Notes: generated from the sequence alone by a model not told the origin. Shown: positions 16,200 to 31,991, counted from the stretch's first letter. The stretch: 64,000 bases of DNA from Myxacorys californica WJT36-NPBG1 (GCA_019359315.1 JAHHHO010000005.1:1-64000), one strand, 5' to 3'. Made by a program: numbers and translations.

Positions 16200-16860
16200 T
16201 CAAAGGGGCTAGCCACCAACTTCCGGCAAAGCCGGAGGCTTGGAAAGGGGAACCGCTCAAAGCGGATTAACCTCTACCATTCATCCGATAATCGCAACTG
16301 TTCAATCCGTTGGTCTTCACTCTCCTGTTCTTGAATGTACTTACGAACTGTCCCTTCATCTCGTCCTACCGTCGAGACATAGTACCCTCGCGCCCAGAAA
16401 TGCTGTCCCACAAAGTTCTTCCGCTTCCCCCCATAGTTCCGCGCGATCGCTATCGCACTTTTGCCTTTGATCAATCCCATTACCTGCGACACCGAGTACT
16501 TGGGTGGAATCGAAATCAGCATATGCACATGTCTGCACACAAGTGTCCTTCTTCGATCCGACACTCCTTCTGTCGAGCCAGTTCGTGGAAGATTTTCCCT
16601 AAATACTACCGCAGTTCCTGCTCCATCGCTTTGCGTCGATATTTGGGAATAAACACCACATGGTATTTGCACTCCCATTTTGTATGGCTTAAGCTACCGA
16701 TATCTTTCAGTTGAGTCTCCTTGACGCGAAGACCACAATTGCTTCGTGTTAACGAGACTTTTCCTGAGACTCCCGGTACTGTCAAACTGTGGGAGTTCCC
16801 CAGCAGAGCTGGAGGTTTACCCGATTGAATTATCAAATGCACAAAGGCTTGAATGTTCAT
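16200..16860 (-). mobile_element. decayed IS200/IS605-type element
   Basis: A tnpA remnant on the minus strand is bounded on the low side by stem-loops typical of single-strand transposons: CTTCCGGCAAAGCCGGAG at about 16219, then AACCGCTCAAAGCGGATT. The other side has a zone rich in inverted repeats (GAGTCTC..., CAGCTCTGCTGGGG). No tnpB is attached. The exact outer ends were not determined. Confidence 0.65.
16274..16710 (-). pseudogene. tnpA: IS200-family transposase TnpA, inactivated
   Basis: Y1 HUH transposase of IS200 type. From a CTG at 16710 the frame reads KDIGSLSHTKWECKY, HVVFIPKYRRKAM, and then a TAG. After a further stretch (FHELARQKECRIEEGHL) a frameshift leads into RHVHMLISIPPKYSV. 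The HUH pair (HVH) and the region of the catalytic Tyr (ARGYYVSTVGRDE) are still readable, ending IEQLRLSDEW. At least one nonsense and one frameshift mutation plus the lost ATG make it non-functional on its own; mobilisation in trans cannot be excluded. Confidence 0.8.
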
Positions 16861-17049
16861 TCCGGTTAATGCCCTCAGCAATCAGTCTTGACCCATTACT
16901 CGCTCAATGCCCAGCATTTGTTTCATCCCAAGTAGCCTTGCGATGATTATGACCTATTTCACAACGGGTCTAACTTTCGTGGCACTACTGGTATGCTCAT
17001 GCTGTCGCTACGTGCTGTCATCCTTTGAACAAACGTTGAGCAAAACGGT
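16861..17049. other. unassigned spacer between IS200 remnant and RiPP locus
   Basis: No gene or strong structure is visible. It marks the downstream boundary of the minus-strand RiPP operon. Confidence 0.3.
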
Positions 17050-18864
17050 CTACTGATAACTTTTGGCTTGAGTCTCAAATAGCTGAGCATAAGCCCCTCT
17101 TAGTTGAACTAGCTCGGCATGGGTTCCGCTTTCGATAATGTTGCCGCGATCGACCACATAGATCCGATCTGCCATTTTCACCGTTGAGAGCCGATGACTA
17201 ATCAATATGGCCGCTTGATCTTTGATCAGCCTCCGGAAGTTTTGAAACACTTCATACTCGGCTTTCGGGTCCATTGCGCTCGTGGGTTCGTCTAGAACGA
17301 TAAGCTGCGACTTCCGCAAGAAGGCTCGCGCTAAGGCAACTTTCTGCCACTGCCCGATGCTGAGTTCTTCACCTTGATCAAATAGCTTTCCTAAAATCGT
17401 GTCGTAGCCGTGTGGCAAGCTGCGAATCACTTCATCTGCACCCGAATGGCGAGCAGCCGCAACAATATTATCGTGGGTTGGAGGAACTTCAATATTGCCT
17501 AGCCAGATGTTTTCGGAAGCAGAAAAGTAGTACTTAACATAATCCTGAAAGATTACACTAATCTGACGGCGTAAGTCAATAATATCGTATTCGCTTAGGT
17601 CAACGCCATCGAGCGTAATTCTTCCGGTCGTTGGAGCATACAATCGACACAGTAGCTTGATTAGTGTAGTTTTACCAGAGCCATTCTCACCGACTAATGC
17701 AATCACCTCACCAGGACGAACAGATAAGCTAACGTCTTTGATGGCCCAGCGAGTTGTTGTGCCATATTGGAAACTAACCCGATCAAACACAATCCCCGAT
17801 CGCATGGGACAAGGAATAAGTTTCGGGTAGGCAGGTGCTTTGATTCCCGGTTCGAGTTCCAAGAATTCATAGAGATTTGTCAGAAAGAGATTATCTTCGT
17901 ACAGCGCAGATACGCTGCCCAAAAGTCCTCGGAGAGAGCTTTGGCCGCGCTGTAGGGCTTCGTGATAAATGACTAAATCACCCAGCTTAAGTGACCCTTG
18001 TAACGTTTGATAAACGATGAAACTGTACGCCGCAAAAATTAATGTGGCTGCCAAAAGTTGAGCGGCTAGACTGGAGAGCCCTTGTCGGGTTTCGATCGTT
18101 AGTCCTTCTCGATAAAGCTGCTGCCGAATCGCATCAAACCGTTGACTAAACAGTTTTCCTAAGTCAAAGAGTCGAATTTCTTTCGCAAAGCTTGGATCGG
18201 TCAACATCCAACCCAAATATTCTGTCTGGCGTTCCATTTCGGTGCGCCGCCGATGCCAGCCAAAAATCACCCTTGCGTACTTTAACTTGACTAGTATGGC
18301 TGGAAGCGCAGCAACAAACAGAATTCCCGCAATGCCCCAATGCAAGGAGACCAGTACACCAATCATCGTCACCAGAGAGATGCCTTCTTGAGAAACTTGT
18401 ACCAAATTGTTCAAGATTTGATTGGGGCGGTAACACGCTTCTTGTTGAGCACGCTGAAGCGAATTGTGATACTCCGCGTTTTCGTAATACTCTAGGTCAA
18501 CCTCGATCGATTTAGCATGAACAATGCTCTGCATGTAGTTTGTGACTTTCTCAGACTGGGCATGATTCACTAGATCTGATAGAGACGCACAAACCGTTGT
18601 CGCTACAATGCTGGCTCCTAGCAACGCAAGTAGCACCATCGTCTGCTGAAACACCCCACTTTTATCTGCGATCGCCAAGCTTTGGGTGACGGCATCAATC
18701 AGAAGTTTCGTGAGATATAACCCGATTAGCGGCAGAATGCCCTGGATGATCAGCAACAGAATGCGAGCAACAGTCCACGAGGGAGCCGCCTTCCATACCA
18801 AGCGAAGGGCAGGCAGAAAGCGGAGGGACTGTTGAAATTTGCGAACGAGGCGAGAGGCAGACAT
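17050..18864 (-). CDS. ABC transporter, fused permease-ATPase (RiPP exporter)
   Basis: The 604-residue half-transporter has an N-terminal six-helix membrane domain (ILLLIIQGILPLIGLYLTKLL, VLVSLHWGIAGILFVAALPAI) and a C-terminal nucleotide-binding domain with Walker A GENGSGKTTLIK, Q-loop VIFQDYVKYYF, signature LSIGQWQKVALARAF, Walker B LIVLDEPTSAMD and the switch His in LISHRLSTV. As the last gene of the lasso-type operon, 10 bp after the methyltransferase gene, it most likely exports the mature peptide and gives self-immunity, like McjD. It lacks a C39 peptidase domain, as expected when a separate B2 protease removes the leader. Confidence 0.9.
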   Translation of the reverse strand: MSASRLVRKFQQSLRFLPALRLVWKAAPSWTVARILLLIIQGILPLIGLYLTKLLIDAVTQSLAIADKSGVFQQTMVLLALLGASIVATTVCASLSDLVNHAQSEKVTNYMQSIVHAKSIEVDLEYYENAEYHNSLQRAQQEACYRPNQILNNLVQVSQEGISLVTMIGVLVSLHWGIAGILFVAALPAILVKLKYARVIFGWHRRRTEMERQTEYLGWMLTDPSFAKEIRLFDLGKLFSQRFDAIRQQLYREGLTIETRQGLSSLAAQLLAATLIFAAYSFIVYQTLQGSLKLGDLVIYHEALQRGQSSLRGLLGSVSALYEDNLFLTNLYEFLELEPGIKAPAYPKLIPCPMRSGIVFDRVSFQYGTTTRWAIKDVSLSVRPGEVIALVGENGSGKTTLIKLLCRLYAPTTGRITLDGVDLSEYDIIDLRRQISVIFQDYVKYYFSASENIWLGNIEVPPTHDNIVAAARHSGADEVIRSLPHGYDTILGKLFDQGEELSIGQWQKVALARAFLRKSQLIVLDEPTSAMDPKAEYEVFQNFRRLIKDQAAILISHRLSTVKMADRIYVVDRGNIIESGTHAELVQLRGAYAQLFETQAKSYQ

Positions 18865-18874
18865 GTAGCAGCAT

Positions 18875-19996
18875 CTAGGCGAAACAGTGGGTCAAGTTCT
18901 GCACAAAGTTGAGCGCTTGTTGCGAATTGGAAAACAGGGCTGGATGCTCGTTCCTAATCTGTTGGCTAAGACTCTCGACCGACTGGGTTCCGTCACTATG
19001 AGATAACACATAGAGGATGGCTTTTCCGCGATCGCTTAAGTGCGGTTGATAATCATGGGCAGCTTTTCGGATGGTCTTCAGCGTCATCGGGACGCCAAAA
19101 AGGGTCGATTTCTGCTGCTGAGTTTGATTAAATTTGACGTGCCAAGTCCAATCGCCATGAGGCGGACGCTGAAGTTTTAAGCTAACGTCCTCCCCAATCT
19201 CGACATCAACCGGAGGATCGATCGGTAAGAAAGCCGCTGACCAGTGCAGCAAAGGTTCGTGGGGAGCTGTAGAAAGCCAAGTGTCTCCTAACAGCATGTT
19301 GAACCATCCTGCCCAGCCGTGGCAGGTTCCGGCTTCTGAGATCGTTGCTTTGACATCAACGTTGCAGTGGGTGCTAGTAGCAGTGTAAAAGTCTAGCGCC
19401 ATCAATTTTGTTGGTTCTGCTAAGTACTGCGCGTTGGCTAACTCTCCACGGCAGTAGTGAATCGATTGACTCACATAGGAACGAGCGGGGCTAGGATCAA
19501 GGTTGAGATGTGGGGTTGACCACACGCCAATCTCATCTTCGTACAAGTTTGGAACAGAAACCGGGACGGCTTGCATGATGCCTGCTTCAGGAATGAGAAC
19601 ACCACCGGGCTTAAGATAGCGATCGCGGGCGTAAAATAGCGAAGGCAAGAGATCTTCCTCGATCAGAAAGTTACCCGTAAACACCGAGACGATGACATCT
19701 ACAGGTTCTGGGATTTCTACCTCTTCGATCTTGCCGTGTAGACATTTCACGCGATCGCCAAATCCATTTTTTTTCGCGATCGCGTCGGCAACAGTGATGA
19801 TATCTTCGGGTTCTACTAAGTAAACACGCTTAGCCCCTAATTGAGCCGCGAGCAAACCGTGAATTCCCAATCCTGCTCCCAAGTCGAGAACCACGCTGTC
19901 TGGGGTAATGACTTTCTTGAGCGCCTCTAGATACGCAAGATTTCGGCGCTCATCGAGCGCCATCGTTTGTTGACCTCGCACAAATGAATAGCTCAT
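18875..19996 (-). CDS. PRMT-like SAM-dependent methyltransferase of the RiPP operon
   Basis: The 373-residue protein has an N-terminal Rossmann methyltransferase domain with motif I VLDLGAGLGIHGLLAAQLGA, acidic VYLVEPEDI, and a PRMT-like loop VSVFTGNFLIEEDLLPS followed by ARDRYLKPGGVLIPEAG. A β-barrel-like region follows, with LLHWSAAFLPIDPP, which recalls the THW loop of protein arginine methyltransferases. The first Glu of the PRMT double-E loop appears replaced. The C-terminal ~70 residues (RGKAILYVLSHSDGTQSVESL...) look like a helical PqqD-like/winged segment. It overlaps the kinase gene by 4 bp. The probable substrate is the peptide from this locus; the target residue is unknown, with Arg6 of the core as a candidate. 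Confidence 0.8.
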   Translation of the reverse strand: MSYSFVRGQQTMALDERRNLAYLEALKKVITPDSVVLDLGAGLGIHGLLAAQLGAKRVYLVEPEDIITVADAIAKKNGFGDRVKCLHGKIEEVEIPEPVDVIVSVFTGNFLIEEDLLPSLFYARDRYLKPGGVLIPEAGIMQAVPVSVPNLYEDEIGVWSTPHLNLDPSPARSYVSQSIHYCRGELANAQYLAEPTKLMALDFYTATSTHCNVDVKATISEAGTCHGWAGWFNMLLGDTWLSTAPHEPLLHWSAAFLPIDPPVDVEIGEDVSLKLQRPPHGDWTWHVKFNQTQQQKSTLFGVPMTLKTIRKAAHDYQPHLSDRGKAILYVLSHSDGTQSVESLSQQIRNEHPALFSNSQQALNFVQNLTHCFA

Positions 19997-20847
19997 GGGG
20001 ATTGCAATTCCTTCAACATAAACGTGTACACATCGGGCAAGCGATCAAAGGAGCGCGGATAGTACAAAGTTTTCACGGGAACCTGTTGTACTAACCGCAC
20101 ATAAGCATCCAGCAAATCCGGATGTTTGGGAAGAAATTCGTTGACATCATAGCCGTGGATCAGCAGATCAAAAATGGCTTGCGTGGCAGGTAGCGCTTCG
20201 GTATAGATTTCATCATCGCTTTCCGCTAGAAGATAGAGGGCACCAAGCGGAACGGGGTGGTGATGTTGCACTGCACCCAACTGCTCTGGAGCGTAGAAAA
20301 TTTTGTAGGCTGTTTCTGCTGAAGCATCCAATCCTAACTGTTCTCCCGTTTCGGGATACAGCTTAATGCGCGGATTGCCCAAAGTTACGTGGTTACGATC
20401 GTCGACAACTAAAACGTCATCTGTGACAAAACCCGCTCCTCGACTTGCACAGTAGGCACTCAACGTGGATTTGCCCATACCTGAATAGCCTACAAAGGCA
20501 ACCGCAACGCCGCGCAGCGAAACGGCATTGGCATGAATGGCAACTCGGCCCTGTAGGTTAAGACAAATTCCCGTCAGTACGCTGCTAAACCCAAGAACGA
20601 GTTCTCTAGCATCCAGTTCTTCTGCGCTCTCCCGAACTAGGACATGGATAGCAGAACCATTGGCAGTAACCCACGCTCCGATGTCTTCTGTCCAAGGCAC
20701 CCAGTAGCGATCGCCAGTAGCACTCAACGATCGTGTTTCTGTTTCCACTTGATTTGGAACGCCTTCTAGGGTGATACCAATCTTTGGAGAAATGGAATCT
20801 AGTTCAGTTTCAAGAGTTTTAAGAAGAAGCTGCATAAACTTAGGCAC
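19993..20847 (-). CDS. HPr-kinase-like protein of the RiPP operon
   Basis: The 284-residue protein carries a Walker A loop GYSGMGKST (residues ~120-128) after RVAIHANAV and VAVAFV, then GFVTDDVLVVDD, the pattern of HprK-type P-loop kinases. Homologues sit in many lasso-peptide clusters; in the paeninodin class such a kinase phosphorylates a Ser at the precursor C-terminus. The N-terminal 100 residues (WTEDIGAWVTANGSAI...) form a β-rich domain seen in these cluster-specific versions. Translationally coupled to the methyltransferase (4-bp overlap). Because the neighbouring core has no Ser, its substrate is open. Confidence 0.82.
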   Translation of the reverse strand: MPKFMQLLLKTLETELDSISPKIGITLEGVPNQVETETRSLSATGDRYWVPWTEDIGAWVTANGSAIHVLVRESAEELDARELVLGFSSVLTGICLNLQGRVAIHANAVSLRGVAVAFVGYSGMGKSTLSAYCASRGAGFVTDDVLVVDDRNHVTLGNPRIKLYPETGEQLGLDASAETAYKIFYAPEQLGAVQHHHPVPLGALYLLAESDDEIYTEALPATQAIFDLLIHGYDVNEFLPKHPDLLDAYVRLVQQVPVKTLYYPRSFDRLPDVYTFMLKELQSP

Positions 20848-21394
20848 TGGTGATAATGTCGTTTGAAATTACTGGGCTTAAAGTCTTGAAACGAAGGCAT
20901 TGCATGAACGTAGAATTTGAGAAAACAGGTTAATTGAAGATGTAATTCATCGAGAAGCTAAAATAACTGAATTTTATGAATGTTGTATCTAAGCTATATT
21001 GCTGAATTGAATGCAACAAACTGTAGTATGTTCTTTAGACTCATATAACATTCATCTTGCTTCATGCTCAGACGCAAACCAAGAGGTTTACATTATAGGA
21101 TTTATACTGATTTACACTATGGATTTAGACTATAGGGGATGTTCATAATTAGCTTATATTTAGTTCAGATTTTCTATAACCGTTGATTAAAAATTTAGAA
21201 GCTCAGGAAACGGTAACAGCAGTAAAAAAACCGCGAATTTTTAATACTACTGTTACCGTATATGGTACAACTTAGCCGAGTCTAAATTAGAGGATTAAGG
21301 TAATCCTACCTAAACTATAAGTTCCTAAATTAGCTCAGGATAACTGCACCTCATTTGAGAGCTAGGTCTAGAACCGAACTAGGACTTATGTTCC
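20848..21394. other. AT-rich spacer between precursor and kinase genes
   Basis: This 547-bp non-coding region lies inside the otherwise compact operon. It holds a strong stem-loop (21210-21259) and a set of short similar words (GGATTTATACTGATTTACAC, ATGGATTTAGACTATAGG) at 21098-21138. I found no second precursor-like reading frame on either strand. Confidence 0.5.
21210..21259 (-). terminator. stem-loop after the precursor gene (attenuator candidate)
   Basis: ACGGTAACAGCAGTA (21210-21224) pairs with TACTACTGTTACCGT (21245-21259), with 14 of 15 positions complementary and a 20-nt AT-rich loop that itself can pair. It lies about 135 bp downstream of the precursor stop in the transcription direction. 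A T-tract directly after the stem is missing, so it may slow decay or attenuate readthrough into the kinase-methyltransferase-exporter genes rather than terminate fully. Confidence 0.5.
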
Positions 21395-21559
21395 TCAGTT
21401 CGCCATGCCGCCACCGGGCGCCATAATCATCAACATGTTGGCACCAGCAAACCCAGCATCGGTATAACGACCAACGTTCATATTCTGAGTCAAGTCAACT
21501 AGCATTCCTAGTTGAGAAACTTTCATCGCTGAGTAGACTTTCTTGTTTACATCATTCAT
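21395..21559 (-). CDS. lasso-type RiPP precursor peptide
   Basis: A 54-residue gene lies between the cyclase and the kinase genes, with a strong ribosome binding site AGAAGGAG 8 nt before ATG 21559. The first 25 residues look like a lasso leader: Tyr9, then Met where Pro is usual, SQLGMLVDLTQ with Leu17-Gly18 and Leu23-Thr24. Thr24 would be the penultimate leader residue, giving a core from Asn26 to Asn54 (29 residues) with Asp34 at core position 9. The C-terminal half is Met/Gly/Ala-rich (FAGANMLMIMAPGGGMAN). Acidic residues exist only at 3, 22 and 34, so Asp34 is the only possible ring-closing acid. No Gly lies 7 to 9 positions before it (Gly30 would give a 5-membered ring). Confidence 0.85.
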   Translation of the reverse strand: MNDVNKKVYSAMKVSQLGMLVDLTQNMNVGRYTDAGFAGANMLMIMAPGGGMAN

Positions 21560-21688
21560 CGGAAAAACTCCTTCTATGTGTTAGAAATCGAAACGAATTA
21601 TCGATAGAAACACCATCAATAAAATAACAGAAAAATTGCTTTGTTAAACCCTATTTCTACAATTACAAGAAACTTTTACATAAAACTA

Positions 21689-23566
21689 TTATAAGTTAAA
21701 ACTAATATGAGTTTTTTTATAACCATCAAGAAGCCTTAAATACCAATTTGTAAACGCAAAAAAGCTGAAGAAATGGTTTGCAGAATTATTCTCGAATGGC
21801 GTTCCAGGTGAATAATTTTTGACATATCCATTTCGATAGTGAAACAGGCATTCTTCTAGTTCTTTGAAATCAATTCTTCTTTGTAAAATGGGCGAAGATT
21901 TGATCTTTTCTAATAGCATTAATACAATTTCCCCTCGACCAATGCCCGCATATTTTAGGGGATCAAAATAGTTATTTTTAGGGCGCAATCTCACATCATC
22001 TGGCAAGGTCGTTCGATTTGCTTCTCTAAAGAAGAGTTTGTCGTGTTGAGAATTACTTTGCAGCGATGGATGGATGCGGAAGGCAAACTCAGTCAGTCGT
22101 TGATCTTGAAACGGTGACGTACTTTCTATTCCATGAGCCGCTAGAAGAAATTTATAGTTCTGTGTATCTCCAGGAAATAAGGCACCCTCAATGTTCGAGT
22201 TAAGGCTCGCTACCTGACCGTCAATTAACTGCAATTTGAAATATTGCTTCAACGCAGTTTGTACTTCAGATTGGTTAGCGTAAGCCGATGTTATCCAAGG
22301 TGGAATTGGGTTATATCGACGCTGACATCGCTTAAACCAGAGCAACTGCCACGCTTCGGGTAGAGATGGCAGAACAAATTGATTCCAGAGAGTCGACTTC
22401 CAATTTCCGTAGGTCATGAAGTAATGAAAAACCTGTCGCCAATTGTTAACTCCAGCTTGCTCTTTCAAGCTGGAGTAGCACAGTTCATCTCCCCAATCGC
22501 CAGTAAACATGAGTCCAAATCCATTCTGCTGCATCTGCTTCATTAACCGCAGTTGCATCGCGCTATTACACATCATGAGCGGATCGTCTAAAAATGGAAC
22601 GGTGTCCCAAGGATCGCTAAATGTCCAAGCATCATCGCAGTTAACAGCGTGCCAATGGATTTGGGGATATCGTTGCAAAAAAGACTGGATAGATTGCCGC
22701 TCATCAAACTCTGGAAATACGGTGGTGATGGCTGAAAACGCATCGATCGCTGGTAGCTGATTTAAGAGCGAAACGGCGATCGTTGTCGAATCTAATCCAC
22801 CGCTCAAAGTGGTGCAAACGGAACGGCAATTGCGGAGGCGATCGCGGACGGCACAATTTAGTAAGTGCCAAAACTGCTCGTAGTGCTGTTCAGCAAATTT
22901 AGGCGATAAATCCCGGTCGAGTGGTTCCAACCGAGCAATGCGCCGATGCTGCAAGTGTCCTCGTTTGACCACAAGCGCTGCTCCTGGCAACAATCGTTTA
23001 ATGTCAGCAAACGGCGTAATCTCCGGAGGATGTGCTTGCAAATCGCACAGGGTATGGGCAAGGTAGAGGTCATCGAGTTGTGAACTGACGCAGGGATGGT
23101 GAAGCAAGCTCAGCGATCGCGATGATAGTAACAACGTTTGGCCATCCCAGTAGTAACAGATAGTGCGTCCTCCTACCTTGTCACATCCGGCAATCAGCAC
23201 GTCTTGAACGGTATCCCATAGAATGAATACAAACTCACCAATCAGATAGCGCTGAAACTCTTCACCCCAGCGGCGGTAGCTCTCAAGGATCAGTTGGGCA
23301 TCGGTCACGAGAGAACGTCCTGCTAATATCGCCGCGCGATCGTCCAGTCGCCCATCCCACACCAGCACACAGCCTTCTGCTTCAACCACGGGAGTTTCTA
23401 AGCAAGATTCGGGCGTGTTGAAAAACTGAGTGCGCCCTAAACTGATCTGGGCTTGGCGATCGTGCCAATCCCCTTTACCATCAGTGCCCAATATGGTGAG
23501 ATCATCCAGCATGGTCTGCCAAGGAGTTTGCTGCTGGCTATTCCACGCCGCTAAAATTCCACTCAT
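21689..23566 (-). CDS. asparagine synthetase-like lasso cyclase (C protein)
   Basis: The 625-residue protein has an N-terminal glutaminase-like domain that starts MSGIL, so the catalytic Cys2 of true AsnB is replaced by Ser. The C-terminal synthetase domain has the PP-loop SGGLDS at residues 255-260, LMFTGDWGDELCYS and a C-terminal region with STSPFQDQRL. In lasso biosynthesis (McjC family) this domain adenylates the Asp/Glu side chain of the core and closes the macrolactam. The match to the B1/B2/precursor context is complete. It ends 129 bp before the precursor start, so both are probably on one transcript. Confidence 0.9.
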   Translation of the reverse strand: MSGILAAWNSQQQTPWQTMLDDLTILGTDGKGDWHDRQAQISLGRTQFFNTPESCLETPVVEAEGCVLVWDGRLDDRAAILAGRSLVTDAQLILESYRRWGEEFQRYLIGEFVFILWDTVQDVLIAGCDKVGGRTICYYWDGQTLLLSSRSLSLLHHPCVSSQLDDLYLAHTLCDLQAHPPEITPFADIKRLLPGAALVVKRGHLQHRRIARLEPLDRDLSPKFAEQHYEQFWHLLNCAVRDRLRNCRSVCTTLSGGLDSTTIAVSLLNQLPAIDAFSAITTVFPEFDERQSIQSFLQRYPQIHWHAVNCDDAWTFSDPWDTVPFLDDPLMMCNSAMQLRLMKQMQQNGFGLMFTGDWGDELCYSSLKEQAGVNNWRQVFHYFMTYGNWKSTLWNQFVLPSLPEAWQLLWFKRCQRRYNPIPPWITSAYANQSEVQTALKQYFKLQLIDGQVASLNSNIEGALFPGDTQNYKFLLAAHGIESTSPFQDQRLTEFAFRIHPSLQSNSQHDKLFFREANRTTLPDDVRLRPKNNYFDPLKYAGIGRGEIVLMLLEKIKSSPILQRRIDFKELEECLFHYRNGYVKNYSPGTPFENNSANHFFSFFAFTNWYLRLLDGYKKTHISFNL

Positions 23567-23604
23567 CTTTCACAGGGGATTTGTAAGGGGATCAAAACCG
23601 TCGT

Positions 23605-23928
23605 TCATGACCGCACCTGATCTGCTTCAGCAATCAGACCGAATGCCATTAGGTCTTGCAAAAATATCTGCAAATCTTGCAATACCTGCGATCGCTCAAT
23701 GTCGTATTCTGCCAAAATCTGATCAACTGCAACTGCAAGGGGTTGCTGAGCTTGCAGGGCTTCCCAGAACGTAATACTGGTTTCATTCAGACTGTAATAC
23801 GCTCCGTTGGGAATGTGCAGTAGGATCGCTTCGTGTTCAACTTGGCGATACAGCACATCATCATGAATCTGAAAACGCTGGTGATTCAGAAACACTTCAT
23901 CGATTTTAAGTTGAGTTGGTTGCTGCAT
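23605..23928 (-). CDS. RRE / PqqD-like leader recognition protein (B1)
   Basis: B1 proteins bind the precursor leader and present it to the peptidase. The sequence shows the PqqD fold: HDDVLYRQVEHEAILLHIPNG in the β-strands, AYYSLNETSITFWEAL, and a helical C-terminus with ILAEYDIERSQVLQDLQIFL. From ATG 23928 the product is 107 residues; the frame could also begin at TTG 23961, giving 118 residues and abutting the B2 stop. The ATG with GGA about 8 nt upstream is preferred. Its gene lies between B2 and the cyclase, the order common in split-B lasso loci. Confidence 0.88.
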   Translation of the reverse strand: MQQPTQLKIDEVFLNHQRFQIHDDVLYRQVEHEAILLHIPNGAYYSLNETSITFWEALQAQQPLAVAVDQILAEYDIERSQVLQDLQIFLQDLMAFGLIAEADQVRS

Positions 23929-23961
23929 TGTTTTTCCTATTAATAAAAGTTTTCTGAGCAA

Positions 23962-24480
23962 CTAAAGAATCATCTGCTTCGGATATTCATTCCTATCCGG
24001 AATCAAACGTTTAAAGCTGATCGGTTCTTCAAACGCAGCATAGAGCTCATGAACATCCGGAACATCATTCAAAACACTGCCCTGATATTCCACCCAAGCA
24101 TGAGCTTGAAACTCACCGTTACATCTACGAACACCAATACGAAGGTCAGTCTCAATGCCTTGACGATGCAATAAGTACCACAGAATCAACGAGCGCTTGA
24201 GGCAGTTTGCCCAACGCGGAGTGTAGTAGCCTGCACGACTGACCAGATAAATGGTTTGGGCAATGCAGTGGAACAATTCAGAATGCACCGGAGCAGCATC
24301 ATGAAACTGCTTAGCTAGGTGAGTTTGAACTCGTTGCAATCCCCATAGCTTAAGGGCAAGTGCGATCATTGGAAACAGAACTAGCGCCTGTAGAAAGAGC
24401 GAGCGTTCTTGCCAAGGCAGCCGTCTCCAAGCCTGCCATTTATGATCCAATCTCTCTAACCAACTTGTTGTTATGATCAA
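23962..24480 (-). CDS. transglutaminase-like lasso leader peptidase (B2)
   Basis: The 172-residue protein is of the B2/McjB C-terminal type: an N-terminal helix pair (WQERSLFLQALVLFPMIALAL), then the Cys of RWANCLKRSLILWYLL, the His of EFQAHAWVEYQG and the Asp of SVLNDVPDV, forming a Cys-His-Asp triad. It removes the leader using ATP together with B1. It starts at TTG 24480, with no upstream ATG or GTG in frame. A 246-bp gap with 17-bp repeats separates it from the nucleotidyltransferase gene, so it may have its own promoter. Confidence 0.9.
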   Translation of the reverse strand: MIITTSWLERLDHKWQAWRRLPWQERSLFLQALVLFPMIALALKLWGLQRVQTHLAKQFHDAAPVHSELFHCIAQTIYLVSRAGYYTPRWANCLKRSLILWYLLHRQGIETDLRIGVRRCNGEFQAHAWVEYQGSVLNDVPDVHELYAAFEEPISFKRLIPDRNEYPKQMIL

Positions 24481-24535
24481 AATGCTACATCCATAACTAA
24501 AGTTGCCATTACAACCTGACTCAATGCACTAGCTG

Positions 24536-24598
24536 ACTTAACCCATTACTTAGCTCGATCCATTACTTAACTCGACTCATTACTTAGGTTGACCCATT
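24536..24598. repeat. 17-bp tandem repeat in the gap before B2
   Basis: ACTTAGCTCGATCCATT (24548-24564), ACTTAACTCGACTCATT (24565-24581) and ACTTAGGTTGACCCATT (24582-24598) follow each other exactly, preceded by a shortened unit at 24536-24547. The units lie just upstream of the B2 gene in its transcription direction and could be regulator-binding sites. Confidence 0.65.
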
Positions 24599-24726
24599 AG
24601 TACGTTCTCTCCAAACCCTTCTAATCCGGATATTCAACGCTACTTTACAGATTCTTCACACAAGTTTAGGTAATCTCTCGGTGCATTTCTACCAGCCATT
24701 CTGTCTGCTCTCAGCGTCAGATTGCT

Positions 24727-26487
24727 CTACTTCAACAGAAGGCGAATCGGACGAATCAGAGGATAGAGGAAATACAGAAAATGCGGGAGTGGCAAAAATG
24801 TCTGGTCGTTTGTATTAGGTTCAGCAATGCGACCAAGATGCCAGCGCCAGTGCTGCACTTTGTCTTGAGATTTTTCTAGAGTTTTGAGCTGAAAGAGAAA
24901 GTCTTGTAGAATCGGAAGCCTGTCTACTTTGCCAGAGAAGTCTAAGATCTGTTCACCTGCTTGTTGAGCGATCGCTCGAACTTTTCGATTCGACCGTATG
25001 GTGTGTGCAATCAATTCGGGCAGCTCTACGTCCAACAAGCTATTCGCTAAACACAACCCAGTTAGAAGAATTTGCGTTGCTCCAAGGTGCGCGGCTTGTG
25101 CCATTACAACGTCCCAATCCATTTGAGGATAAGATCGCACACACTCTGCCACATCACACACCCATTTCAGACGCTTCCAGCATTCTTTGGCACCATGCAT
25201 ACAGAGATATAGCAACAAGTCTTCTTGACCCAAACTAGGCACAGTTTGACCCTGCACCGCAATCAGTTGCCGACGCTCCCACAGTTCTTCAAAGGTGGCT
25301 TGGGTAGACAAAAAATGTTGAGGCAACAGTTTATGGTGCAAATCAATCATTGCAATACCATTGTTGAGTGGAAGCTCTCCCGATGAATTAACATAAGCTG
25401 CCTCTCTTGCATCGCTGAGATAGCGCCAGCCCCGCTCGTCTACTGCATATCCTTCCTGTTCGATTAGGAGCGCGATCGCGCGATCGAAGTCTTTTTCATG
25501 CACCAAAATGTCGAGATCCCCAAACTGTCGTAACCCCAAACCTTTGTATAAATTTGCTGCTAAAACTGCTCCCTTGTAAGGCAGCGCCAGAATTTGATGG
25601 GACTCTAAAAGGGATAGGGCTTTAAACAGTTGTTGGGTCAATGCGATGTTCCGTAGCGCGTAAGCTGTTGCCGTACGGCGCAATGAACTAAGAATGTCAG
25701 CAGGAACGGCTTCTGAACAAACTGCATTGAGGGACTGGTAGACCAACGAGGAGACCTCATGACGCTCGACAAGGTCAAGCAATAAATCCCAGTTCAGTGG
25801 TTCCTTGACGATCGTTCTGATTTCCTCGATCGTTTCTAGGTTAAGCGTCGTGCGAGCACTACACAACAGCAAAATCACTTCGGGACGCCGATCAAACACC
25901 CAAGACGGGCGCGAAATCTTCTTGTCCCTAGAATCTAGATTCCCTTCCTCAATGACGCAAAGCTGAAAATAGGTATCGACTTTCGATTGATTTGAGGCTT
26001 CATACGCCTGAAGACTTTTAAAGTGACGGATGATTAGAGTGAGTGGGTTAATACCCTGAGGAATCAACCAAGTGCACCATCGTATCAGCTTCCAAGTGTT
26101 GTAAAGCGACGTACGCGTTAGCCACTCATGAACGGCAACACGAGCTTCATCAAGCGCACCATCGTACTCTAGTTCAATTGGTTTCTCATGAAAGGTATAG
26201 GAATTAAAACCATGAATACCGCTAACTTTCTCGTTAGCAATTTCAATTCTGTCTAGGCGCGAAACTTCAAAATGATAGAGATCGTGGTAGGTCAACCAAT
26301 GATGGCGTAGTTTGACCATCCGTCCAGCAATGCGAACCGGATCATTACTCACACATCCGAGCAGCCTTCTGACTCGATTGCTGATTTTCGGCTGCCAGTA
26401 GGGGCTGAATCGTTGGAATGGAGTTTCCGTGTTACCGCTTGCTGAGTTCATGACTAGAATCTGAGGTTTGTTGACTGGTTCTGACAA
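24727..26487 (-). CDS. nucleotidyltransferase-family protein (PF14907-like) with N-terminal extension
   Basis: The 586-residue protein has a central nucleotidyltransferase motif (ALPYKGAVLAANLYKG then RQFGDLDILV at residues ~321-329, containing D-x-D) and a helical C-terminal half (GQEDLLLYLCMHGAKECWKRLKWVCDVAE). This 'NTP_transf_5' type is a frequent companion of lasso-peptide genes, with mostly unknown reaction. The first ~195 residues (SPYWQPKISNRVRRLL..., IRHFKSLQAYEAS) are an extension I do not recognise. It is the first gene of the RiPP locus. Confidence 0.8.
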   Translation of the reverse strand: MSEPVNKPQILVMNSASGNTETPFQRFSPYWQPKISNRVRRLLGCVSNDPVRIAGRMVKLRHHWLTYHDLYHFEVSRLDRIEIANEKVSGIHGFNSYTFHEKPIELEYDGALDEARVAVHEWLTRTSLYNTWKLIRWCTWLIPQGINPLTLIIRHFKSLQAYEASNQSKVDTYFQLCVIEEGNLDSRDKKISRPSWVFDRRPEVILLLCSARTTLNLETIEEIRTIVKEPLNWDLLLDLVERHEVSSLVYQSLNAVCSEAVPADILSSLRRTATAYALRNIALTQQLFKALSLLESHQILALPYKGAVLAANLYKGLGLRQFGDLDILVHEKDFDRAIALLIEQEGYAVDERGWRYLSDAREAAYVNSSGELPLNNGIAMIDLHHKLLPQHFLSTQATFEELWERRQLIAVQGQTVPSLGQEDLLLYLCMHGAKECWKRLKWVCDVAECVRSYPQMDWDVVMAQAAHLGATQILLTGLCLANSLLDVELPELIAHTIRSNRKVRAIAQQAGEQILDFSGKVDRLPILQDFLFQLKTLEKSQDKVQHWRWHLGRIAEPNTNDQTFLPLPHFLYFLYPLIRPIRLLLK

Positions 26488-27259: not shown

Positions 27260-28411
27260 TTAGCTCAAGATCACTTGTCGAACTTGAGGTGCGATCGCGC
27301 GCCAATCGAATTTTTGGCGAACATACTCGTGACAAGCCACACGGGAAGGTAATTGAATTGTCCCGGTTAGTAGGTCAACCAATCGAGCCGCGATCGCGTC
27401 AGTGCTTGTTGTCTCAGTGACCAACTCTGGAGCAAACGGAGTCATCACTTCGGGCATTCCCCCTACAGGAGTGCAAAGTACGGGCGTTCCACTCGCGAGC
27501 GATTCTAGGAGAATTAGCCCAAACCCTTCGAGACTCTGGCTTGGAACAACTGTTAGATCGGCGGCTTGATAGGCGATGGGTAGTTGTTCATCTGGAACAT
27601 AGCCGAGGAGTTTGACATGATCCCTCAGCCCAAGCTGGTCAATTTGCTGCTCTAGCTGAGGTTTGATCTTGCCCTTGCCTGCGATCGCTAGCCAAACATC
27701 GGGAACGTGCTGTTTGACCTCGACTAGTGCCGTCAGCAAATTGTCGATGCCCATTCGATGAGCTAACCGACGCGGAGTAAATAGAATCGTGCGATCGCAC
27801 GGAAACCCAAGCTGTTCGCGAGCAGCTTGGCGCGATAGGTTTGCTTGAAAGCACTGTAAATCGACGCCACCTGGAATCACATGAATCCGCTCCCAGGGAA
27901 CGCGATGCATCTCGTGCAAGATTTGACCAAAGGCTTTGCTGAGAACAATGAAGCGATCGCAGCGTTGAAACACCTGATGTTCCATCCATTGTTTCAAGGC
28001 AATGTTGCAGCGCCCAAAGCCTTCCTGCTTACTCTCCATTGCCCAAGGCCCATGAAAGGTGAATGTGACCGGAACATCTTTAGGAAGCTGGTTGAGCAGC
28101 GGCAAGCTATAGAGCACAAAGTGCAAATTGATAGCATGTGGCGTTTGCATCTGCCGTTGGCTGAAGCGTGCCTGGCTCGACCAAAGACGCTGAGGTAAGG
28201 ATGAGTGTGGTGTAGCCAAATTGGTGAACGCGATCGACGAATCCGTTGCATCGGGTAGGCCAACACCACACAGTTCGATGCGATCGTTTTGCTTAGAAAG
28301 GTGGTGAGACAGTTCGTAGAGATAACGATTGAGTCCACCGGGAGTCTTAGGAAACCAGCCCATGCCCACACATAGGATGTCAGCAGGTGATGTATTAACG
28401 GGGTAGTTCAT
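27260..28411 (-). CDS. glycosyltransferase, GT4 family
   Basis: The 383 residues form a GT-B fold transferase: an N-terminal GMGWFPKTPGGLNRYLYELS with the acceptor-domain glycine loop and a C-terminal donor domain with LLGYVPDEQLPIAYQAAD and PSQSLEGFGLILLESLASGTPV, the EX7E motif of retaining GT4 enzymes. It is the most 3' gene of the exopolysaccharide cluster and probably adds one sugar of the repeat unit. Donor and acceptor cannot be inferred. 158 bp without a gene separate it from the methyltransferase gene. Confidence 0.88.
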   Translation of the reverse strand: MNYPVNTSPADILCVGMGWFPKTPGGLNRYLYELSHHLSKQNDRIELCGVGLPDATDSSIAFTNLATPHSSLPQRLWSSQARFSQRQMQTPHAINLHFVLYSLPLLNQLPKDVPVTFTFHGPWAMESKQEGFGRCNIALKQWMEHQVFQRCDRFIVLSKAFGQILHEMHRVPWERIHVIPGGVDLQCFQANLSRQAAREQLGFPCDRTILFTPRRLAHRMGIDNLLTALVEVKQHVPDVWLAIAGKGKIKPQLEQQIDQLGLRDHVKLLGYVPDEQLPIAYQAADLTVVPSQSLEGFGLILLESLASGTPVLCTPVGGMPEVMTPFAPELVTETTSTDAIAARLVDLLTGTIQLPSRVACHEYVRQKFDWRAIAPQVRQVILS

Positions 28412-28569
28412 GAAATGGTAGCCGTTTTAACTGACAAAAGTTGAGTTGGTAGAGCACTCTGTCAGTTGCTATCGAATCGTAGCCACATCTATTTCAAAAA
28501 CTGTTGATTTTTGGTACTTGGCTTCTCCATTTTGAGCAGCAACATCAAGCCTTTTGGTCAAAAGCAATA

Positions 28570-29307
28570 TCAAATTTTCTTAAACAGAAAATCGACGCTA
28601 CAGGGAAGTGAAGAGCGGAGGGGAGGGAGTTTTTGCAGCAAAAAATAGTAAATTGTTTCTACCGCTCCTCGATTGAGAGTGCTGGGATCAAAACGTATCT
28701 GAGTCTCAAGCCCTGCTTGTTCTGCTAGCTGTTGAATTTTGTCATAGATTAGTACATCTTCAGGAACCTCTGGTCTTTTTCTGTTAACTCGTGCATAAGC
28801 AAGCTTGTAAAGATATTGCTTACAGGCAGGTTCGTGTAGATATAAACACACTCCTCCCTTTTTCAGGACTCGATGCACTTCTTCTAACGTTTTTCGATAT
28901 TTAACAAAATGATGCGCTGACTCAAAACAAAAGATGAGATCAATGCTTTCGTCAGCTAGAGGAATGTCATAGGCACGACACTGTAGCTTTTCATCTAAAG
29001 TGGTTTTGAGAACGTATTCCCATTTGCTCGCAGATGCGATCGCATATTGACTAATATCAGAAGCAATCACATACTTTTCTGGAAATTTCCGTTTCAGAAA
29101 ACAGGAAGCCCAGCCTTGCCCGGCACCAATCTCAAGAATGCGTTGCGCTGTTCTGAAGTGATGTTGATGGTAGTCAAGCTTCTCTAAAAAAATCTTAGCC
29201 TCGCAGAATTTGCTGACTAAATTTTCTACTGCCTCAGATTTTGGGCTCTCGACCGGAGAGTTTTTCCAAAATTCGATCTCAATTTGTTCCTTTTGCAGAA
29301 TGTTCAT
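28570..29307 (-). CDS. class I SAM-dependent methyltransferase
   Basis: The 245-residue protein has motif I RILEIGAGQGWASCFL, the acidic VIASDISQYAI, and LADESIDLIFCFESAHHF followed by EEVHRVLKKGGVCLYLHEP, the Methyltransf_11 pattern. Within a glycan cluster it most likely methylates a sugar or lipid-linked intermediate. The C-terminal third (KQYLYKLAYARVNRKRPEVP...) has no motif I recognise. Codon and base usage are slightly more AT-rich than the neighbours. Confidence 0.8.
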   Translation of the reverse strand: MNILQKEQIEIEFWKNSPVESPKSEAVENLVSKFCEAKIFLEKLDYHQHHFRTAQRILEIGAGQGWASCFLKRKFPEKYVIASDISQYAIASASKWEYVLKTTLDEKLQCRAYDIPLADESIDLIFCFESAHHFVKYRKTLEEVHRVLKKGGVCLYLHEPACKQYLYKLAYARVNRKRPEVPEDVLIYDKIQQLAEQAGLETQIRFDPSTLNRGAVETIYYFLLQKLPPLRSSLPCSVDFLFKKI

Positions 29308-29452
29308 AAGGCGAGTGAATAATAGAATGACTCCGTTACTTCAATCTTCAATTTGGACTGTCATTGTTCTGAAAATTGAATACTGCATCGTGGTGAATGC
29401 ATTGTGCAACGCTTAAGATAATGCTGCTAAAAAACATTCAGCGATCACTCGA

Positions 29453-30760
29453 TCAGATAGGCGAAACTTGTTCTGGTTGAGCAGCTAGAGAATTTGGTTT
29501 AGGGTCTAGGGAAGCAGGTGCAATCTTTCCTTGATTTGGAACAATCTGCTCTAACAATTTAATAAAGTCAGCAGAAATTTTTTCGGGAGCAAAGTGTCGA
29601 GCGGCTTGTTCTCTCGCTTGCTGACGTAGTTCTTGACGGTGAAGTTTGAGATCTGCAATCAGTTCCCGAACCTGCTGCTCAAATTGATCCATGTCGCCCG
29701 CCGGAAACTCGCGGCGACACTCTCCCTCGACCACTTCAGCAGAGCCGATCGCATCACTTACCACAACACACAGTCCTTGGCTTAAAGCCTCACCAACAAC
29801 AATTCCACCCGGCTCATAGAGACTCGGCAGCAGCAAGATGTCAGCCGAGTTATATGCTTTAGAAACATCATGGTAATTCATCCCACCTCGATAGGTCGCC
29901 ACCTTGGGATTGAGGTCTTTTAGGTGTTCACGATAGTCTGACCACTGTGTCTTGTCTCCAATCACCTCAATTTCAACCTGTCCTGCTAAATCATCTAACC
30001 GCTTGCTGAGTTCAATGATGTACTGGAGCCCTTTGCGAACACTGATTCGAGCCACAAATAGCAGCTTGGTGACGCTTCGACTTGCTGCCGCCGCGTCAGA
30101 TGCCTGAACCTCTGCTAAGGGCTGAGGACGGGCAGATTGATAAAGCACAGCTTGGCGTTCAGGTTCAACGCCATAATCATGTGCAACTAAATCATTGAAT
30201 CGCTGGCTCATGCCGATGATCAAACTGGGTTTCCGCAATTCGCGCTTTTGAACCCAAGCTCGATAGGTCAACATAACGCGAGTGATGTAGTGCATCCAGA
30301 AGTTCTCTGATTGCAGAGCATAAGCGCTCTCTAATCGATGCCAGCGCAGTTCGCCAGCCGCATGAACGCAGGGATAAATCACAATCGGCGGGAGACGATG
30401 GCGATTTTGACCTAGCTTAAAGAGCTCTGTTTGAGAGATTTGAACAATGCAATCATAAGGATGCTCAGCGTGGCGATCGATCAACAAATCGCATAAGCGC
30501 TGGTAGGCACGAGTACGAGAGATTGTGCCTGAGAGAAAAGCTTTGAATGAACTATTGCTGTACCACTTCCCCCACTGCCAGCGAGTCGGCGTTGAAACAA
30601 ATTTCAGATTTGGATACTGTTTTGCCCACTCAGGTTCCCCCTCGTCAATGCCATAGCAGTCTATCTGAACCCCTGAATGGAGTACTGCCTGCATCAACAT
30701 GACTGCGATACTGCCTACGCCACTTGTTCCGTGTACTCCGCCAAACCAAGCAATTCTCAT
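29453..30760 (-). CDS. glycosyltransferase, GT4 family
   Basis: The 435-residue GT-B protein begins MRIAWFGGVHGTSGVGSIAVML, has the donor-site region KLLFVARISVRKGLQYIIEL, and the EX7E motif in PSLYEPGGIVVGEALSQGL. It lies 13 bp after the preceding GT4 gene in transcription order, so both are co-transcribed. The C-terminal 40 residues are a Pro/Gln-rich tail (QIVPNQGKIAPAS...). Confidence 0.88.
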   Translation of the reverse strand: MRIAWFGGVHGTSGVGSIAVMLMQAVLHSGVQIDCYGIDEGEPEWAKQYPNLKFVSTPTRWQWGKWYSNSSFKAFLSGTISRTRAYQRLCDLLIDRHAEHPYDCIVQISQTELFKLGQNRHRLPPIVIYPCVHAAGELRWHRLESAYALQSENFWMHYITRVMLTYRAWVQKRELRKPSLIIGMSQRFNDLVAHDYGVEPERQAVLYQSARPQPLAEVQASDAAAASRSVTKLLFVARISVRKGLQYIIELSKRLDDLAGQVEIEVIGDKTQWSDYREHLKDLNPKVATYRGGMNYHDVSKAYNSADILLLPSLYEPGGIVVGEALSQGLCVVVSDAIGSAEVVEGECRREFPAGDMDQFEQQVRELIADLKLHRQELRQQAREQAARHFAPEKISADFIKLLEQIVPNQGKIAPASLDPKPNSLAAQPEQVSPI

Positions 30761-30773
30761 TCTAATTTCCTTT

Positions 30774-31991
30774 CTAATGCCGTTCTACAACGATGAGATC
30801 TTCTGAAATGCCAAGCTGCACTTCTTTGTAAAGCTTGACTGTGTCTTGAACCATCTTTGTGACTGAAAACTTCTGTTGAGCTGTATTGCGAGCAGCTTCT
30901 GACATCTGCGATCGAAGTTGGTCTTGATCCAGCAGAAGTTGTAATCGATCTGATAGTGCTTCAGAATCATCAAATGGCACCACAAAGCCATTTAATCCCT
31001 CGTCAATTTGATCTTTAGCGCCTCCGGCTGGTGTTCGGATAGGAACTGCACCGCAGCACATTGCTTCCGCAACAGCCAATGCGAACCCTTCTGATCGACT
31101 GGGTAATGTGAAAACATCGGCAGCCCAGTAGGCTTCTCGAAGATGATCGACGTAGCCCAAGAATTTGAAACGCTCTGCGTCTTCTACACTCGTGAAAGCA
31201 TACTCTTTAATCTGTTTCTCTTCAGATCCTGACCCCACGAACAAGCATTTCAAATTGATGTGTGGGGATTTTTCTCTTAGATGCCTCGCCGCTTCAATCA
31301 GCACATCGTGCCCTTTATTCCAGCTAAGTCTACCGACAAGAACGCAAACTTTATCAGATGGAGCAAATCCAAACTTTTGCCGAGCAGCCTGACGTTCATC
31401 AGAGTTGGGAACCCGGAAATAGTCTGTGTCAATTCCATGAAAAATTCTACGAATTCTAGTTTCAGGGAAGCCTAAATCTTGGCGTAAAAAGCTGGTAATT
31501 TCAGACGAATAGCTGATGAACTCCTCCGGGGAAAAAAGTCTTAGAAACAGCTTGTAGCGTTGTGTTTTGGAGTTTAGAGTTTCTGCCTTCAATGCCTTTG
31601 GATCGTCCCCATGAATAGAGGGATGATAAGTTGCTACACAACCTATGCCAGTTATTATTTTAAGAATTCGCGCAAGAACTAGCATAGAGTAGCCATGCGC
31701 GTGAAATAGAGAAATGCCATGCCGACTCACTACAGACTTGAGACGCCGTAAACAATCGATACTTGGAAAAAGAGGATTCAGATGCTCGAAGATTATCCAT
31801 TCTTCAGCAATGTCTTGGAGCGCTTTGAAGCGACGAATGGAATTATGGTCGTAAGACACAGGACCTGTGATGAGCACCACATTCCATCCAGCTTTTTTAA
31901 GACCGTTTATGAGCGTCTCACAATGCGAAGAGACGCCATCATTGCAGTCGACTCGCTTTAAGAGAAATCCGATCGTTTTCTGATTGCTCAT
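30774..31991 (-). CDS. glycosyltransferase, GT4 family
   Basis: The 405 residues show a Rossmann-like N-terminus (VDCNDGVSSHCETLINGLKKAGWNVVLITGP), ISLFHAHGYSMLVLAR, and the donor domain VCVLVGRLSWNKGHDVLIEA with FKFLGYVDHLREAYWAADVFTLPSRSEGFALAVAEAM (EX7E). This is a standard retaining GT4 enzyme, forming an operon pair with the next gene downstream. Substrate unknown. Confidence 0.88.
   Translation of the reverse strand: MSNQKTIGFLLKRVDCNDGVSSHCETLINGLKKAGWNVVLITGPVSYDHNSIRRFKALQDIAEEWIIFEHLNPLFPSIDCLRRLKSVVSRHGISLFHAHGYSMLVLARILKIITGIGCVATYHPSIHGDDPKALKAETLNSKTQRYKLFLRLFSPEEFISYSSEITSFLRQDLGFPETRIRRIFHGIDTDYFRVPNSDERQAARQKFGFAPSDKVCVLVGRLSWNKGHDVLIEAARHLREKSPHINLKCLFVGSGSEEKQIKEYAFTSVEDAERFKFLGYVDHLREAYWAADVFTLPSRSEGFALAVAEAMCCGAVPIRTPAGGAKDQIDEGLNGFVVPFDDSEALSDRLQLLLDQDQLRSQMSEAARNTAQQKFSVTKMVQDTVKLYKEVQLGISEDLIVVERH

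Follow-up and report, generated by a model that had tools for sequence, protein, structure and literature searches.

Several gene clusters are known in which a kinase accompanies the biosynthesis of a lasso peptide, among them those for paeninodin (pade), pseudomycoidin (psm) and the bsf product of Bradymonas sediminis. The pade and psm kinases target a C-terminal Ser and their peptides are phosphorylated; the bsf kinase phosphorylates Ser3 of the ring (PMC10368454). The locus analyzed here lies in a 64,000-nucleotide stretch of DNA from Myxacorys californica WJT36-NPBG1 (GCA_019359315.1 JAHHHO010000005.1:1-64000), referred to below at its full length as the window. As had been predicted from the sequence, eight genes occupy positions 17050-26487 in one orientation. 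They are read on the minus strand from 26487 to 17050 in the order N-B2-B1-C-A-K-M-D, with the nucleotidyltransferase-like gene N at the 26487 end, followed by those for a leader peptidase (B2), a leader-binding protein (B1), a cyclase (C), the precursor (A), a kinase (K) and a methyltransferase (M), and with an ABC exporter gene (D) at the 17050 end. The window shares A, B1, B2, C, D, K and N with the bsf cluster, and N with psm as well. Its core peptide, like the bsf precursor and unlike the pade and psm targets, has no C-terminal Ser. M has a protein arginine methyltransferase (PRMT) fold, and no such enzyme has been described for pade or psm.

Judged from the gene set and the precursor, the locus almost certainly makes a lasso (knotted) peptide. 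The reading that we favor, with moderate confidence, is that this peptide would be phosphorylated, methylated and exported, and that a PRMT-derived M would have been turned to an acceptor other than arginine. The cluster itself is of the kinase-bearing lasso kind; the new element is M, a previously undescribed lasso tailoring enzyme.

The methyltransferase M and its kinase partner

The original prediction called M PRMT-like, and for the fold this is correct. M scores 44 bits against PRMT_C (cut-off 27), its profile matches PRMT6 with E 6e-58, and its structural model (pLDDT 93.7) superimposes on PRMT8 with Z 34.0 and a root-mean-square deviation of 1.7 over 296 residues; the S-adenosylmethionine (SAM) motif and the oligomerization subdomain are present. 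As a guide to function the label is misleading, because the first Glu of the double-E loop is Val105 in M (the second is retained as Glu114) and because Arg is not conserved in the core peptides. In PRMTs the Glu that has changed contacts the guanidinium group of the substrate. M descends from protein arginine methyltransferases, and its arginine clamp is no longer complete. At its C terminus lies an additional helical domain (about residues 306-373), for which resemblance to the B1-type recognition element was considered and is not claimed, the profile comparison being weak (5% probability).

Homologues of M in non-lasso settings mostly keep the first Glu (SEWMG, SEWLG, SEIFD). The lasso-linked enzymes can be sorted into an alpha class, which includes the window and its relatives (SVFTGN..EDLL, His-Trp retained), a beta class (SD(L/I)RGxLP, second Glu and His-Trp lost), a gamma class from Gemmatimonadota (EDVRGVLP), and a delta class from three acidobacterial loci, L254, L258 and L260 (SETIGNYGAEE, both Glu retained); the M proteins of L078, L098 and L117 fall outside all four. 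Every lasso-linked M retains the SAM-binding GxGxG and an element with an invariant Arg18 and a near-invariant Tyr22. Beta-type M proteins with an SDMRGSLP-like loop and the C-terminal domain were also seen in Anaerolineales bins (L063, L067, L069, L074, L103), with no lasso genes nearby.

K is an HprK-like kinase. It scores 28 bits against Pfam Hpr_kinase_C, just under the cut-off of 33, its profile matches HprK structures (E 2e-8), and its predicted structure fits the PEPCK/HprK fold. The residues H103, G118, G121, G123, K124, S125, D141 and D142 (alignment numbering) are invariant or nearly so, and the invariant residues are those of the characterized lasso kinases (PMC10368454). A search with B2 over 390 cyanobacterial genomes gave 58 genomes above the cut-off, and K was present in 45 of the 47 complete lasso loci (39 without M, 6 with M). 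K is ordinary for a cyanobacterial lasso locus, since kinase-bearing clusters have been published and nearly all of these loci have one. The original prediction took these genes, combined with an unusual precursor, to suggest a modified lasso peptide not obvious from known examples; K is not unusual in this respect, and M is undescribed.

The link between the two genes is close. A scan of GTDB genomes with an alignment of lasso M proteins gave 80 loci, and 50 M-bearing lasso loci resulted; these are mostly metagenome bins in which single taxon assignments may be wrong, and they are spread over Cyanobacteria, Acidobacteria, Proteobacteria, Chloroflexi, Gemmatimonadota, Myxococcales, Planctomycetota, KSB1 and Actinobacteria. 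No lasso M was found in viral contigs. K accompanies M in 48 of the 50, the two exceptions being contigs of 6.8 and 3.4 kb, and the two genes overlap or adjoin in 31 of the 48, in both gene orders. In the window they share a 4-bp overlap, ATGA, just as had been noted. Complete acidobacterial loci, where K is not universal, allow a comparison: both genes occur in 7, K without M in 11, M without K in none, and neither in 10, so that M is present in 7 of 18 loci with K and 0 of 10 without it. The proposal that K and M form a tailoring pair is therefore supported by their co-occurrence, with the qualification that many K-bearing loci lack M. A K-M-D-N cassette was also seen in a Verrucomicrobia bin (L079, 9042-14075), beside polysaccharide chain-length genes, where a lasso B1, B2 or C was not found; this may be the same pair at work outside lasso biosynthesis.

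Close relatives of the locus (L028, L029, L030 and L044, the last from Calothrix PCC 7716) have essentially the whole gene set, a homologous precursor at the corresponding position, and M proteins 61-66% identical to that of the window. In L028 and L029 a homologue of D, 64-69% identical, directly follows M. Cyanaurora (L031/L055) has K, M, N, B1, B2 and two precursors, and a cyclase was not found in the 18-21 kb read of its 29-kb contig. The more distant relatives L032-L035, with M proteins 31-34% identical, are lasso loci too. A second, unrelated class I methyltransferase lies within two of the M-bearing lasso loci (L028, 8782-9555; L035, 9763-10575).

The core peptide and the acceptor of M

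The published lasso leader motif, Y(-17)xxP(-14)xL(-12)...T(-2), takes its positions from PMC10368454. The leader of A matches exactly at Tyr-17, Gly-8 and Thr-2; Met replaces Pro-14, as in L028 and L044, and Val replaces Leu-12, as in L028. The boundary of the core, NMNVGRYTDAGFAGANMLMIMAPGGGMAN, was set by the Thr(-2) rule with the relatives aligned. It places an Asp at position 9, within the expected range of 7-9, and Asp9 is predicted to close the ring with Asn1. By the original prediction, the lasso assignment would fail if homologous loci lacked the precursor or carried a different one; they have one with the same leader motif, and the assignment was upheld. By the same rule, 24 of 51 cyanobacterial lasso cores (L154-L215) would start with Gln or Asn, versus the usual Gly, and their cleavage site may differ. 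In five loci (L033, L034, L059, L068, L081) a Thr at -2 would put the ring Asp at position 10; the rings there would span 10 residues, or else cleavage would fall one residue later.

Tyr7 and Thr8 are the only Ser, Thr or Tyr residues of the core, and K would for this reason probably phosphorylate the ring, most likely at Thr8 (or Tyr7). Phosphorylation of a C-terminal Ser in the manner of paeninodin is impossible here, the last residue being Asn.

The composition of the cores points away from arginine as a general acceptor of M. Precursors were located by a leader-pattern search, in which a few may be wrong (e.g. that of L051, with a core not preceded by Thr at -2). Met occurs in a core in 32 of 39 non-delta loci with M and in 3 of 47 without it (p 2e-13). 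The association holds within cyanobacteria (7 of 12 versus 3 of 35, p 0.001) and within acidobacteria (8 of 8 versus 0 of 12, p 8e-6). Arg shows no link to M (23 of 48 cores with M, 18 of 51 without), and arginine methylation as a general rule was rejected, 21 of 45 non-delta cores with M having no Arg. Every non-delta core with M has Met, Lys or Arg, and 17 of 59 cores without M have none of the three. A correlation of a Val or Asp loop with Met or with Lys/Arg was judged by eye only and is not claimed. Two lines, the lost arginine clamp and the association with Met, favor a non-arginine acceptor in this clade; in the window it would probably be something other than Arg6, or not Arg6 alone. 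The Met-rich tail is the statistically favored site and is put forward as a hypothesis, the possible acceptors being a Met thioether, Arg6, a phosphate-linked group and the C-terminus.

Several observations weigh against this reading. The core opens with Asn, which is uncommon at the start of the ring. It does contain an Arg, and M keeps Glu114 and the His-Trp element. Seven non-delta loci with M have no Met, so that Met cannot be its sole acceptor. Loci with and without M were gathered from different seeds. When relatedness is removed by means of a cyclase tree, only five independent pairs with good support have M in one member alone: on average Met changes along with M in 4.3 of them, and it never changes against M, with p values of 0.06-0.25 that are, for so few pairs, short of significance alone.

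It is unlikely, in our judgment, that M is a true arginine methyltransferase with ring residue Arg6 as its target, Val being tolerated in the loop and the Met richness being a by-product of tail packing. The fold, the single Arg of the core and the second Glu and His-Trp retained in the clade of the window would all suit such an enzyme, as would the three delta loci with an intact double-E, whose cores are free of Met and contain 4-5 Arg apiece. On the other side, L030, L031 (with its two precursors) and L053, which are close relatives sharing the loop, have cores with neither Arg nor Lys, the altered Glu is the established guanidinium contact, and in the paired tree comparison Arg follows M in 0.8 pairs and opposes it in 0.9. 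The delta loci themselves (L254, 5196-10996; L258; L260), with cores such as ATSGGIRADRIGPAPNRVSR, are good candidates for true arginine methylation of a lasso peptide.

Also improbable is the proposal that the target of M is the C-terminal carboxylate or else a group added by K or N, e.g. the phosphate or a sugar borne by it, in which case no conserved core residue would be needed. No locus of sufficient completeness has M without K, Gly and Ser/Thr are the only residue types common to every core with M, and StspM provides a precedent for C-terminal methylation of lasso precursors (PMC9266682). This proposal nonetheless leaves the Met enrichment unexplained, and StspM was described as modeled on mitomycin 7-O-methyltransferase, not on a PRMT. 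The notion that M is inactive, a structural partner of K, is highly improbable: it would suit the altered acceptor loop and the overlapping genes of several loci, but the SAM-binding and Arg18/Tyr22 elements are kept throughout.

A pathway for the favored product, phosphorylated and methylated at a non-arginine site, can be modeled as follows. B1 would bind the leader and present the precursor, K would phosphorylate the core, and M would place a methyl group on a different side chain of it; this order for K and M is proposed because the known lasso kinases act on the precursor. By analogy with its relatives, B2 would then cleave off the leader, here after Gln(-1), and C would link Asn1, by its amino group, to Asp9, with the tail threaded through the resulting ring. 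N, like PsmN, may build a further group onto the phosphate, and D would export the product. The calculated monoisotopic masses are 2913.29 for the unmodified lasso, 2993.25 once a single phosphate is added and 3007.27 if a methyl group is added as well. In a more specific and distinctly doubtful form of the model, the PRMT-derived family S-methylates Met in kinase-modified, Met-rich lasso peptides, creating a fixed positive sulfonium, and the double-E sister enzymes methylate arginine.

Genes of the locus and their surroundings

The family signatures claimed for N, B2, B1, C and D were all recovered (Table 1). B2 scores 89 bits on NF033537 (cut-off 33), and its predicted Cys-His-Asp triad is found in the expected order as Cys93, His127 and Asp139. 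B1 scores 42-46 bits against lasso PqqD models. C scores below the curated cut-off of 525 for the lasso cyclase model NF033535, with 208 bits versus 147 for AsnB (TIGR01536); position 2 is Ser in place of the catalytic glutaminase Cys, and the ATP motif SGGLDS is present. The missing Cys and the better fit to the lasso model speak against C being a true asparagine synthetase, the other outcome that would have refuted the lasso assignment. Homologues of N are found in most K-bearing lasso loci, and an N-type protein accompanies the kinases of psm and bsf. The TTG starts given for N, B2 and B1 were assigned mechanically and are uncertain, and the N-terminal 200 amino acids of N are uncertain too. 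Elsewhere, proteins of about 395-400 amino acids with a C-terminal PqqD-like domain lie between precursor and kinase (L032, 8684-9868; L064, 4920), the N-terminal half of the L032 protein being phosphoribosyltransferase-like by eye, and one acidobacterial bin (L056, genome G391) has about 10 lasso-cyclase-like genes, mostly without adjoining B1 or B2.

Table 1. Features of the lasso locus in the window
Feature	Position	Strand	Evidence or remark
N, nucleotidyltransferase-like	24727..26487	-	NTP_transf_5 PF14907, E 9.5e-63 (Pfam)
B2, leader peptidase, transglutaminase-like	23962..24480	-	PF13471 (Transglut_core3) and NF033537, both above cut-off
B1, leader-binding protein, PqqD/RRE (RiPP recognition element)	23605..23961	-	PF05402, E 1e-15
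C, lasso macrolactam cyclase, asparagine-synthetase-like	21689..23566	-	PF00733, E 4e-31
A, precursor, 54 aa, MNDVNKKVYSAMKVSQLGMLVDLTQ / NMNVGRYTDAGFAGANMLMIMAPGGGMAN	21395..21559	-	relatives align at leader motif
Leader of A, 25 residues	21485..21559	-	Tyr-17, Met-14, Val-12, Gly-8, Thr-2
Predicted core of A, 29 residues	21398..21484	-	Asn1-Asp9 ring, Met-rich tail; from Thr-2 rule
Imperfect inverted repeat, 21-nt arms, between A and K	21210..21259
K, HprK-like precursor kinase	19993..20847	-	H-G-G-G-K-S-D-D motif
M, PRMT-fold methyltransferase	18875..19996	-	loop SVFTGN..EEDLL vs usual SEWMG..ES
D, ABC exporter	17050..18864	-	PF00005 and PF00664

A GAAGGAG ribosome site precedes A. The inverted repeat that follows A could possibly limit read-through past the precursor; a consensus scan for a terminator after A gave no terminator-like match. 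Just past the exporter end, a short open reading frame (16606-16881, minus strand) ends in about 30 N-terminal residues of an IS200/IS605 transposase, a remnant of an insertion element. Directly upstream of the locus there is probably an exopolysaccharide cluster, with glycosyltransferases, another methyltransferase and a Wzz/P-loop (tyrosine-autokinase-like) protein at 27260-31991 and 45577-47790 (minus strand).

Comparison with known tailoring enzymes

In the open literature, we found no PRMT-type enzyme linked to lasso peptides or to other ribosomally synthesized and post-translationally modified peptides (RiPPs), although subscription papers lay mostly outside the search and absence is not proven. 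Searches there for lasso peptides with arginine methyltransferases, or PRMTs with RiPP clusters, gave only unrelated work, for the former on a ribosome drug, and those for lasso peptides with an HPr kinase and a methyltransferase, or with a nucleotidyltransferase, gave no report from cyanobacteria. A 2024 review of RiPP methyltransferases does not mention PRMTs. M would represent an undescribed class of methyltransferase in lasso pathways, spread over bacterial groups and tied to the lasso kinase, and it suggests a testable rule relating its loop residue (Val, Asp or Glu) to the content of the peptide (Met or Arg). If M does methylate Met or a phosphorylated residue, the modification would be one that is not in the RiPP and lasso reviews searched.

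Compared with the bsf cluster, the window has Thr rather than Ile at leader position -2, and it has a methyltransferase where bsf has none. SAM-dependent tailoring of lasso peptides, as proposed for M, is known from StspM and LasF, which form a C-terminal ester, and from LihM, a PIMT that gives an aspartimide. These enzymes belong to other methyltransferase families, for which neither a PRMT fold nor a link to a kinase is reported. M resembles PRMT1, PRMT6, PRMT8 and CARM1 over residues 1-302 in fold (Z 32-34), SAM motif and His-Trp loop; it differs from them in the Val at the first Glu of the double-E loop, in the extra C-terminal helical domain, and in presumed substrates that have no conserved Arg.
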